A stretch of DNA of 64,000 nucleotides, taken from NCBI RefSeq assembly GCF_009618275.1, contig NZ_WIAD01000012.1:1-64000 (forward strand). The letters run 5' to 3'. The notes beneath the pieces are model-generated. The model did not search any database and had not been told where the DNA came from. It saw only the letters and a list, made by a program, of their open reading frames with translations. A program made the translations under genes and the position numbers. The DNA is from Roseimaritima sediminicola (GTDB taxonomy: Bacteria > Planctomycetota > Planctomycetia > Pirellulales > Pirellulaceae). Positions 14,220-44,235 of the stretch are shown piece by piece (positions within the stretch are counted from its first letter, which is position 1; every line of letters starts with the position of its first letter).

Positions 14220-14309
14220 GGTCCCCGTTATTGAACCGGGTCCCCGTTATTGAACGGGTCCTCGTTATTGAACCGGTCCCCTTTATTGAACCGGTCCCCT
14301 TTATTGAAC
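14220..14309. repeat. 18-bp tandem repeat, five copies
   Basis: Unit GGTCCCCGTTATTGAACC repeated five times with small variations (CCCCTTTATT in the last two). It abuts the 3' end of the UspA gene at 14301. Non-coding, function unknown. Confidence 0.85.
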
Positions 14310-15224
14310 GGGGGTGACGAAGGCTTCGGGTTTGATGGTCAGTACCGAGCACTGGACGTCGGACAGGATGGACTCGGCCGTATTGCCAATAAAGAATCCC
14401 GCCACACCGGTTCGGCACTGTGTGCCGATGACCAACAAATCAGCGTCCACCTGGTCGATGGTTTCACGAATCTTGGTGTCGGCTGCGCCGCGGTGGAGGT
14501 GCTTTTGGACCGTTGGGCTGCGGACCGATTGGTGAACCAGCTGATCCAGTTTCGTTCGCACGTCGGATTCCAGCTCCGCCACCACACCGTCGACAATCTT
14601 GTCGCCCAGTCGCGCCCGCAAGGCGGTTTCCATCCAGACGTCCCACACACTGACCACGTGCAGGGTCGCCGCCTCACGTCTGGCAATCGTATCGGCGTAT
14701 TCGAGGATGTCTTCGTTCAGTGCGTTGTCGGCGGCTTCGGGCGACGTGACGTCGATCGCTGCTACCACATTGTCGAACTGGTCCGGCGACTCCGGCTTCA
14801 GCAACCACACCGGACACGGCGCCAGACGCATCAAGGACTGCGAGACGCTGCCCAGCAGGCGATCGGTGATTCCAAAACCATCGGCCGACTTGACCAAGAG
14901 GTCACAGTTGCCTTCGACGACCTGCCGGACGATCGCATTGGCGGGATCACCGACGGCGACCACGGCATCCAGGGGCACGCCGGTGCAGGAGTACTCACTG
15001 GCCAGCTCCAGCAACTGACGACGGCGCTCGGCCGCGACCGTCTGCTGCAGTTCGTCGGGGTCGTCGATGCCGCTGAACATGCTCCAGGTGCGCGGCAGAC
15101 GCTCGACCACGCTCATAAACGTCAAGGCCGCCTGGTTATCGATCGCCAACTCGACCGCGCGGCTGCGAGTGGCTTCGTCCGCAGCCGGATCGGTGACATG
15201 CAAAATGTGCCGGAACTTCTTCAT
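14301..15224 (-). CDS. Tandem universal stress protein (UspA domains)
   Basis: A 307-residue cytoplasmic protein made of two UspA folds. The first starts KKFRHILHVTDPAAD and includes SADGFGITDRLLGSVSQSLM before APCPVWLLKP. The second starts FDNVVAAIDV and ends with LLVIGTQCRTGVAGFFIGNTAESIL, close to the nucleotide-binding G-x2-G-x9-G(S/T) signature (G-T-A-E here). Usp proteins act in stress tolerance, often by binding ATP. The start is ATG 15224 with GAGG six nt upstream. It is divergent from the baeRF gene, sharing the 15225-15568 intergenic region. A second tandem Usp gene sits at 38286-39152. Confidence 0.9.
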   Translation of the reverse strand: MKKFRHILHVTDPAADEATRSRAVELAIDNQAALTFMSVVERLPRTWSMFSGIDDPDELQQTVAAERRRQLLELASEYSCTGVPLDAVVAVGDPANAIVRQVVEGNCDLLVKSADGFGITDRLLGSVSQSLMRLAPCPVWLLKPESPDQFDNVVAAIDVTSPEAADNALNEDILEYADTIARREAATLHVVSVWDVWMETALRARLGDKIVDGVVAELESDVRTKLDQLVHQSVRSPTVQKHLHRGAADTKIRETIDQVDADLLVIGTQCRTGVAGFFIGNTAESILSDVQCSVLTIKPEAFVTPVQ

Positions 15225-17419: not shown

Positions 17420-17494
17420 CTCGATAGACCGCGACTCGATAGACCGCGACTCGATAGACCGCGACTCGATAGACCGCACCCCGATGGACCGCGA
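17420..17494. repeat. 15-bp tandem repeat, five copies
   Basis: CTCGATAGACCGCGA repeated at 17420, 17435, 17450, 17465 and 17480, with the last two copies diverged. Non-coding. Confidence 0.85.
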
Positions 17495-17550
17495 CCCGAG
17501 CCGTTCGGCACCGCTCAGCCCTCGTGGTGCGTCAAAGCCCAAGCTTAGGG

Positions 17551-25745: not shown

Positions 25746-26195
25746 TCAGCACCTGGGACAGGGCAGGGATAGACCGTAGGTACAGCGATTGCACGTTGGG
25801 CAATGCCACTCCCGCCAATCTCGGCAGGTGCGACACACATCGCAGTGCCAGGTGCAGCTCTCCTGCTCTGCGGTTCCCCTGCAGAAGGAAAAGGAATAGA
25901 GCTCGTCGTCGCAGCCAGGACAAGAGTAATTGTCGATCAGTAGCTTTAGTGGGACCGGGTCATGGCCACAGGGCAGCGGTATTAAAAGTTCTAGCTCTTC
26001 GCTAGTCAGTGCGCGAACGATCTCTGCGTTTCCAATCGCGCAGTCGGACATCCTCGAGACATCCATGCCATTGAGCGGGTTCTGGCAATCAACACACTTG
26101 CACGCCTCACTGCAAGGTTGATGGTTTCTTAAGCACTGGCATCGTCGCGTGTCACAGCGGCCCTTGCATTTACAACGCATGGTGGTTTCTTTCAT
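25746..26195 (-). CDS. Small CXC (CRC/Tesmin-TSO1-like) zinc-binding protein
   Basis: A 149-residue cysteine-rich protein. Residues 8-37 read C-x-C-x3-C-x4-C-x-C-x6-C-x3-C-x-C-x2-C followed by N. This is one copy of the CXC motif of Tesmin/TSO1/LIN54 DNA-binding proteins, with one residue fewer in one gap. The C-terminal third ([20 protein letters not shown]) has the C-x2-C-x2-C...HC-x2-C-x2-C spacing of CTCHY/RING-associated zinc fingers. About 19 cysteines in all suggest several zinc sites. No signal peptide. In animals and plants CXC domains bind DNA; the role here is unknown. The start is ATG 26195; an in-frame ATG lies five codons later. Confidence 0.75.
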
Positions 26196-32267: not shown

Positions 32268-33911
32268 ATGAGTTCACACGTAAAGAACAGCCCCGCGGCT
32301 TGGGCTGCGTTAACCTTGCTATTGGCCAACGTCGCCATCGCTGCGGACTACACGGCGGCATCGCTGTCGGCCGTCGACGGAACAACGCTGGGACGCTTGC
32401 GCTGGATCGTGTGGAACGTTTCGCCTGTCACGAACGTGGGTGGCGGAGAGAACACCGCGTTCCAGGAGCTGGCCGTTCGCACTGCGGAAGAGCCTTTTAC
32501 AGAGACAGAGACAGAGACAGAGACAGAGACAGAGACAGAGACAGACGATTCGGCGGCGACAGACGCGGCGGCCGGAAAACCCAATGTCATCTACCTGATG
32601 CTGGATGACTGGGGGTATTTTGAAAGCGGGCACATGGGGCACCCGGAATTGGTGACGCCGAACATCGACCGGTTTGCCAGCGAAGGGATGCGTTTTACGA
32701 ATGCTTACGCCGGAGCCCCGGTGTGTGGGCCGACGCGAGCCGTGTTGCTGACCGGATTGCATGCCGGCCACACCTCGATGCGCGTCAACAACGGCTTTTC
32801 GCCAATCCGCGAAGACGAGCCCACTCTGGGCACGATGCTGAAGCAGCACGGCTATGCGACCGGCGGCTTCGGCAAGTGGGGCATCGGCGCACGCGGTACG
32901 TCGGGCGTCCCGGAAACGCATGGCTTTGACGAGTTCTTCGGCTACTACCATCAGGTCCATGCTCATACCTACTACCCCGCCTACCTGATCCGCAACAGTC
33001 GCGAAGTGCCGCTGGCAGGAAACACCGGCGAGAGTTTTTACATGGGCGAGACCCACGCCCAAGACGAGATCTTCCGCGAGTCGAAGGAGTTCATTCGCGA
33101 ACATCGGGACCAACCGTTCTTTTGTTATCTGCCCTGGACACCGCCCCATGGTCTGTGGGGGATCGACGAGGACGATCCTTCGTGGCAGCTTTTTAAAGAC
33201 AAACCCTGGACCGCCGGCCAGCGAACCGATCGCGACGCTCGCGTGTACGCCGCATTCATGCATATGATGGATCGGCAACTGGGTGAGTTGATGGACCTGT
33301 TGAAGGAGTTGGAACTCGACGACAACACGGTCATCTTTCTGTGCGGAGACAACGGCGGGCAGGATTACTTTCATACCCCAGACCGTCCGCATGGCTTTTT
33401 CGCTCCGAACCTAAATCCCGAAACACGAACGCGGTTTCGGGCGGGCAAAGGTTCGCTGTACGAGGGCGGACTGAAAGTTCCCTTTCTGGTCCGTTGGCCG
33501 GGGAAGGTACCCGCGGGAACGGTCTCCGATCATGTGCTCAGTTTTCAAGACGTTATGCCCACGCTGGCCGACTTGACCGGTGCGAGCAGTCCGCCCACGG
33601 ACGGACTGTCCTTTCTACCCACGTTGATGGGCCGAGAGGGCCAGCAAGCACATTCGCATCTGTACTGGGAGTACCGAGATCAGACCGCGGTACGAATGGG
33701 GCGGTGGAAAGCGTATCGCAAGAACAAGCAGCCCTGGGAACTGTACGACCTTTCCGAGGATGTCGAAGAAGCGAACGACCTTGCCGCCCAGCATCCCGAG
33801 CTCTTAAAGCAGCTGATCGCACGGGCACAGCAGGAACACGAGCCGGTGCGGCCGGGTAAAATCTACGATCGCCAGCTGGTCGAAAAGGATCGCCGCCAAG
33901 CTCCGCACTGA
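32268..33911 (+). CDS. Sulfatase (formylglycine-dependent), with Thr-Glu repeat
   Basis: A 547-residue secreted sulfatase of the arylsulfatase superfamily. The signal peptide MSSHVKNSPAAWAALTLLL.. ends near AIA. A ~70-residue N-terminal insert carries a Thr-Glu repeat coded by ~7 ACAGAG hexamers (32499-32540). Then PNVIYLMLDDWGY supplies metal ligands and CGPTR places the formylglycine cysteine near residue 153 (C-x-P-x-R). GKWGIGARGT and CGDNGGQDYF are further active-site segments. It hydrolyses sulfate esters, likely of algal polysaccharides; the exact substrate is unknown. ATG 32268 is preferred to the in-frame TTG 32262. Confidence 0.92.
   Translation: MSSHVKNSPAAWAALTLLLANVAIAADYTAASLSAVDGTTLGRLRWIVWNVSPVTNVGGGENTAFQELAVRTAEEPFTETETETETETETETDDSAATDAAAGKPNVIYLMLDDWGYFESGHMGHPELVTPNIDRFASEGMRFTNAYAGAPVCGPTRAVLLTGLHAGHTSMRVNNGFSPIREDEPTLGTMLKQHGYATGGFGKWGIGARGTSGVPETHGFDEFFGYYHQVHAHTYYPAYLIRNSREVPLAGNTGESFYMGETHAQDEIFRESKEFIREHRDQPFFCYLPWTPPHGLWGIDEDDPSWQLFKDKPWTAGQRTDRDARVYAAFMHMMDRQLGELMDLLKELELDDNTVIFLCGDNGGQDYFHTPDRPHGFFAPNLNPETRTRFRAGKGSLYEGGLKVPFLVRWPGKVPAGTVSDHVLSFQDVMPTLADLTGASSPPTDGLSFLPTLMGREGQQAHSHLYWEYRDQTAVRMGRWKAYRKNKQPWELYDLSEDVEEANDLAAQHPELLKQLIARAQQEHEPVRPGKIYDRQLVEKDRRQAPH
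32499..32545 (+). repeat. In-gene hexanucleotide repeat
   Basis: About seven perfect ACAGAG units followed by ACAGAC, read as (TE)n in the sulfatase N-terminal region. Slippage would change protein length in steps of two residues without a frameshift. Confidence 0.9.
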
Positions 33912-43726: not shown

Positions 43727-44100
43727 CCGCAGGTCGCGCGTTAAACGCTTGTGTCGCCCCTCCGGGGCTTTGTTTTGTTTGGGGTGGCGAGACCCGGCGG
43801 TTGACACCGCCGGCAGGGGCTATGCCGCCCTGCGGGCTGGTGCTGCGGTCGCGGTGATTGTTGCGGCGTGGTTTGTTTGGTTCCGCTGCATGTCCAACAT
43901 AACTTGCTTGTGAACAAGTCTGCTCCTGGCTCCTAGCCCGAAGGGCGGCACAGCCTCTGCCGGGGACGTGAGTCCCCGGGTCCGGGCCAGCAGAACACTT
44001 TTAGCCCGAAGGGCGGCACAGGTGCAGACCCGCTGGGTCGCCCCTCCGGGGCTTTGGTTTGTTTGAGGATGCGAGACCCGGCCGTGACACCGCCGGCAGG

Positions 44101-44191
44101 GGAAGGCTTCGCCGGGGGTAAGGCCTTGTGTTCGGTGTTCGAGGGGGGGGGAAGGCTTCGCCGGGGTCAGGCCTTGTGTTCGGTGTTCGAG
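44101..44191. repeat. REP-like repeat, two tandem copies
   Basis: Two copies of GGAAGGCTTCGCCGGGG.. followed by CCTTGTGTTCGGTGTTCGAG (44101-44143 and 44150-44191). An inverted copy lies at 44997-45035, so these bracket the RAYT gene. Confidence 0.8.
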
Positions 44192-44235
44192 AGGGGGAGC
44201 GTAAAGGGTTGCACCTATCCGCCCGGAGGATTGTC

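Follow-up and report, generated by a model that had tools for sequence, protein, structure and literature searches.

CXC domains are DNA-binding folds familiar from the chromatin regulators of animals and plants, and they are usually treated as eukaryotic chromatin modules. The superfamily consensus is CX[C/H]X2-13CX4-7CXCX5-60CX2-4CX1-2CX2-15CXN (PMC3447885). MSL2 of Drosophila dosage compensation (PF16682; PDB 4RKH, 2LUA), a RING ubiquitin ligase, carries a single CXC domain with nine cysteines. LIN54 and TSO1 (Tesmin/TSO1/LIN54 CRC, PF03638; PDB 5FD3) carry CXC domains in tandem. MSL2 inserts an arginine into the minor groove of DNA and LIN54 a tyrosine; in LIN54 the position before the fourth cysteine is held by Tyr536 and Tyr610, and a change of tyrosine to arginine abolishes binding to the CHR (PMC4974476). 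The arginine of MSL2, Arg543, directly precedes the fourth cysteine as well (numbering of PMC3447885 and alignment of the PDB sequence).

The gene described here is located in a 64,000-nucleotide stretch of Roseimaritima sediminicola DNA, called the window below. The open reading frame runs on the minus strand from an ATG at 26195 to a stop codon at 25746–25748. Its features were as follows.

25746–26195, minus strand: coding sequence of a 149-aa CXC and putative Cys/His zinc protein (open reading frame, alignment with 37 other full-length relatives, dN/dS).
26079–26177, minus strand: CXC (TCR/CRC) domain, residues 7–39 (PF03638, matches of the predicted fold to 4rkh and 5fd3, conservation in 38 of 38 proteins).
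25974–26078, minus strand: linker with short predicted helices, residues 40–74 (NPLNG..., C52; helices of the model; conserved P40, N42 and C52).
25749–25973, minus strand: putative C-terminal Cys/His zinc-binding region, CTCHY-like, residues 75–149 (invariant Cys/His columns, model pLDDT 84.5, weak resemblance to RCHY1 and ZCCHC4).

The gene was flanked on the left by a converging ORF of 228 aa and on the right by a diverging ORF of 261 aa, both unknown, with PSD1/PSCyt2, DUF1501, WD40 and sulfatase genes beyond the latter. Neither mobile nor defence genes adjoined it. A search by pattern found no consensus sigma-70 promoter, and no NCBIfam model matched the protein. In the 6.2-Mb genome, PF03638 matched the window gene only.

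An alignment-guided scan of 84,980 prokaryote genomes yielded 42 loci, of which 39 were full length at identities of 46–58%. The window protein and 37 other full-length relatives were aligned as a family of 38 proteins. The initial annotation had read a eukaryote-type CXC domain into this bacterial protein from the spacing of its cysteines, and profile, predicted structure and residue-level tests bore out both the domain and the spacing. Residues 8–39 read C-x-C-x3-C-x4-C-x-C-x6-C-x3-C-x-C-x2-C-x-N, with all nine cysteines (C8, C10, C14, C19, C21, C28, C32, C34 and C37) and the signature Asn39 in place. All 38 members satisfied the published consensus, including the Asn two residues past the ninth cysteine. 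The nine cysteines, the Arg before the fourth (Arg18 in the window protein, at what is the DNA-reading position in MSL2 and LIN54), Asn39 and Pro40 were likewise invariant in 38 of 38. Since these residues were invariant and the exact spacing was found in none of 7,600 composition-preserving shuffles (the looser published consensus in 57), the cysteine pattern is not due to chance. The proposed profile search with PF03638 returned the window protein at an E-value of 2.5e-4, with 21.7 bits in one search and 24.7 in another around a cut-off of 23.5, and it matched 37 of the 38 members at E ≤ 1 (best 7.4e-7). The MSL2-CXC profile (PF16682) matched 25 of 38. When the family profile was compared with all PDB sequences, LIN54 was the top match (E 0.007), followed by MSL2 (E 0.037).

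The CXC domain spans only about 33 alignment columns and was present once in 37 of the 38 members, including the window protein. A tandem pair was found only at locus L036 (5869–6465), N-terminal to the zinc region and arranged as in LIN54 and TSO1. A search of 392 Planctomycetota genomes, and of 297 and 296 genomes from two further phyla, brought no other prokaryotic CXC architecture over the Pfam cut-off, and partial matches at loci L004 and L136 fell under it.

A template-free AlphaFold2 model of the whole window protein reached a pLDDT of 88.6 and a pTM of 0.78. The best alignment of this predicted model, from which zinc ions are absent, was to the MSL2-CXC/DNA structure (4rkh; Z 5.6, 44 residues, 2.3 Å), followed by LIN54 (5fd3; Z 5.3, 36 residues, 1.3 Å) and the CXC domain of EZH2 (4mi5; Z 3.6–4.3). 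All three clearly outscored unrelated entries; Foldseek alone gave no E-value below 0.19. In the comparison with LIN54 that had been proposed, the predicted fold agrees, with MSL2-CXC ranking first. The prediction that residues 8–39 adopt the CXC fold is well supported, and they would accordingly hold a Zn3Cys9 cluster.

The family protein resembles MSL2 in its usual single CXC domain, in the Arg directly before the fourth cysteine (aligned with Arg543), in the Asn-Pro after the ninth, and in the loop itself (C-R-N-S-R-C in MSL2, C-x-N-R-R-C in the family consensus). It differs from MSL2 in the segment between the second and third cysteines (11 residues in MSL2, 3 in the family), in lacking the ubiquitin ligase context, and in a C-terminal Cys/His module of a kind that MSL2 does not have. 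The Tesmin/TSO1/LIN54 domains appear to share the Zn3Cys9 fold and have nearly identical cysteine spacing, yet LIN54 and TSO1 combine tandem domains with a minor-groove Tyr, whereas the family usually has one domain and always an Arg. The window protein therefore falls outside the LIN54/TSO1 family proper. The predicted cluster fold is also that of the pre-SET CXC domain of EZH2, a histone methyltransferase; the family has no SET domain. Because the Tyr-to-Arg change costs LIN54 its CHR binding, Arg18 need not act as the arginine of MSL2 does. Still, MSL2 uses an arginine, and arginine cannot replace the tyrosine of LIN54, which led us to infer an MSL2-like rather than a LIN54-like mode, in which Arg18 would enter the minor groove. 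No clear DNA motif was shared upstream of the family genes, where only A-rich 6-mers just exceeded the shuffled maximum.

The C-terminus had been described as a CTCHY-like zinc finger. Its pattern, HC-x2-C-x2-C-x7-HC-x2-C-x2-C, is real and invariant in the family, and this half of the protein also holds a CxxC, a lone Cys and a later CxxC; the Cys/His ligands are invariant. The CTCHY label itself found weak support. In the CTCHY stretch of RCHY1/PIRH2 (2dkt), the ligands HC-x2-C-x2-C-R ... HC-x2-C-N-x-C were in register with the family, although the likeness was not significant (E 1.1) and the gap between the HC blocks differed. The family protein has neither the RING nor the CHY domain of RCHY1. 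Alone, the C-terminal half matched no Pfam family significantly. Modelled alone, it reached a pLDDT of 84.5, and its best structural match, the zinc fingers of ZCCHC4 (6UCA; 32 residues, 2.0 Å), had a low Z of 2.6. This half would form a separate Cys/His zinc-binding region, for which a CTCHY identity is plausible. In the linker, the model placed helices at residues 51–55, 57–62 and 65–68.

The survey of phylogenetic spread suggested by the initial annotation showed that the gene is no one-off. It belongs to a rare family found in Planctomycetota, Chloroflexota, Desulfobacterota and other delta lineages, Acidobacteriota, Bacteroidota, Gammaproteobacteria and Nitrospinota, and in the methane-cycling archaea Methanoperedens and Methanosarcinaceae. 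Its presence was patchy, at about 0.3–4% of the sampled genomes per group and one or two copies per genome. Among 148 relatives, two carried the gene, one being the window's own genome; the other copy was 58% identical and had different contig neighbours. It was present in 2 of 251 genomes in the phylum of L030 and in 9 of 242 in the order of Eth-SRB2. Some family genes were located in single-contig chromosomes (L030, and genome G905 with locus L062), which argues against contamination. No relatives were found in phages, plasmids or viral contigs.

Across the 38 aligned proteins, 36 columns were invariant. They include the nine CXC cysteines and the later Cys/His ligands, and further Trp116, Arg125, Asp126, Trp127, Trp130, Tyr140 and Gly141. 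The family is under purifying selection, with dN/dS (NG86) of 0.23, 0.12 and 0.10 in three pairs of relatives; dS was saturated in two other pairs. In the weakly resolved tree, the window sequence sat on a long branch and pointed to no particular donor. The archaeal sequences formed one group whose sister was a single Bacteroidia sequence (97/93), as expected after transfer. No neighbour gene was constant across the family, and many loci sit among housekeeping genes. At L029 (929–2134, Anaerolineales), two diverged tandem copies were flanked by hypB-like and hypC-like hydrogenase maturation genes.

We propose, with a probability of roughly 0.6, that the window protein is a mobile, single-CXC DNA-binding zinc protein that acts as an accessory regulator or adaptor. 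Residues 8–39 would form the Zn3Cys9 cluster and, by analogy with MSL2, bind DNA by means of the invariant Arg18, while the Cys/His region would be a second zinc module, its partner probably a protein or a nucleic acid. Such a protein would most likely be self-contained, travelling with transposons and variable islands and in some cases integrated into BREX or Wadjet operons, and would be essential to no one system. That a single small gene, complete in itself, recurs in elements and operons of unrelated kinds is easier to reconcile with an accessory DNA-binding regulator or adaptor than with a component dedicated to any system. The earlier suggestion of a new zinc regulator comes close to this reading, in which the regulatory role itself is drawn by analogy.

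The protein could instead be an accessory of anti-phage defence whose DNA binding guides BREX, Wadjet or restriction machinery or controls how it is expressed. At four archaeal loci, only a few bases separated the gene from those on either side of it, a small HTH-like gene and pglZ-brxL of BREX, and this placement was kept across Methanoperedens and Methanosarcinaceae. In one Bacteroidia genome, its neighbours were jetB (DUF4194) on one side and a jetC-like SMC gene of Wadjet on the other. The CXC protein is a described component of neither system. Upstream of the gene at L014 were a type II methyltransferase and a partner nuclease (assigned by eye), L033 had a type I restriction subunit nearby, and Septu models were matched among the pooled neighbours, placed at L034 by sequence inspection only. 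In total, 229 PADLOC models were matched among 133 neighbours and 76 among 139 control proteins from stretches of the same or related genomes; the models are redundant, and the control tallies include a few kinase and helicase models. By locus, defence genes were found at 5 of 31 loci and 0 of 32 control stretches (P 0.024), a small count that was assigned by hand and not blind. The enrichment is suggestive only, and any mobile gene tends towards islands. Most loci, including the window, had neither a defence gene nor a transposase. Nor was the gene constant within BREX: among 30 pglZ relatives, it accompanied 6 of the 10 closest and none of the 20 more distant. One of the close operons without it (L105), with a 90%-identical pglZ, had a different gene of 315 aa upstream instead, which suggests an exchangeable accessory slot. 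We regard an accessory role in defence as rather unlikely.

The family is horizontally mobile. Eth-SRB2 carried two copies in 2.3-kb units that were 95.7% identical over the shared stretch and had different flanks, with an ISKra4-like transposase downstream of the CXC gene (NF033572, 2.9e-54, under its cut-off). The units ended in 24-bp imperfect terminal inverted repeats. With a score of 24, where 2,000 random pairs reached up to 25, these repeats owe most of their support to their placement at either end of the duplicated unit. An assignment of the transposase at L027 to ISLre2 was rejected in favour of an ISKra4-like one. Two Acidobacteria genomes had in common a 99%-identical segment that held the gene together with an IS66 transposase (PF03050, 5e-18) and whose abrupt left boundary started with GTAACTTCTCAATAAGTCCGGG. 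An Eisenbacteria contig had an inverted match, GTAACCTCTCAATGAGCCCGGG, on the far side of a degenerate CXC gene copy with an IS66 transposase (77% identical) beside it. The two ends scored 32 against a null maximum of 28, and their occurrence in both lineages places the gene between the IS66 transposase and the element end. The IS66-like arrangement was thus seen in two phyla, and the two kinds of element together in three. A further genome had a 529-bp, 97%-identical copy pair with abrupt ends and little besides the CXC gene.

These elements, with near-identical copies at separate sites of one genome, are also what a selfish or transposon-serving passenger would produce, one that regulates or assists transposition or merely hitchhikes. 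We regard this as unlikely, since the two transposase families are unrelated and most copies are far from any transposase. Genomes hold only one or two copies, and a catalytic motif is not apparent in the protein.

Tesmin was first described as metallothionein-like, and the family protein, very rich in Cys and with a predicted zinc-cluster fold, could be imagined as a zinc or metal buffer. This is very improbable: residues other than Cys are equally invariant (Arg18, Asn39, Pro40 and the RDW.WH stretch), the model shows a folded protein at high confidence, and metal-transport neighbours were not consistent. That the open reading frame is spurious or its cysteine pattern fortuitous, for which the marginal single Pfam match of the window protein might speak, is refuted by the existence of 38 bacterial and archaeal relatives under purifying selection with profile and structure matches.

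As to origin, either the eukaryotic or the prokaryotic CXC may have come first, and the domain may be an ancestor or a transfer, as the initial annotation suggested. The CXC fold was already known, and the Pfam match may already stand in database annotations. A widespread, mobile prokaryotic family with this architecture is apparently undescribed as far as the literature searched shows; no paper on a prokaryotic CXC protein was found in the part that was covered. In this compact family, the CXC fold and an MSL2-type Arg are joined to a new partner domain, and the genes occur in mobile or defence settings. It reopens the question of where the CXC domain originated, offers a small, easily expressed protein for studies of CXC–DNA recognition, and adds a candidate to the accessory genes of BREX and Wadjet. 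The stronger proposal, that the CXC fold in these prokaryotic proteins has a function within BREX, Wadjet or the control of transposons and that such mobile genes gave eukaryotes the CXC domains of LIN54/TSO1, MSL2 and EZH2, seems improbable to us.

Some minor observations concern locus L014 and the window. At L014 (1213–5881), the N-terminal part of the type II methyltransferase gene occurred twice, on either side of the rlmB-like and CXC genes, resembling a partial duplication. The window contained tandem repeats at 17420–17499 and 14220–14312 (units of 15 and 18 bases, 5.3 and 5.1 copies) and a 48-base direct tandem repeat at 44099–44197 (two copies, 94% matching). In a sulfatase gene, the 6-base unit ACAGAG was repeated 7.8 times (32499–32545), giving a Thr-Glu repeat near the N-terminus.
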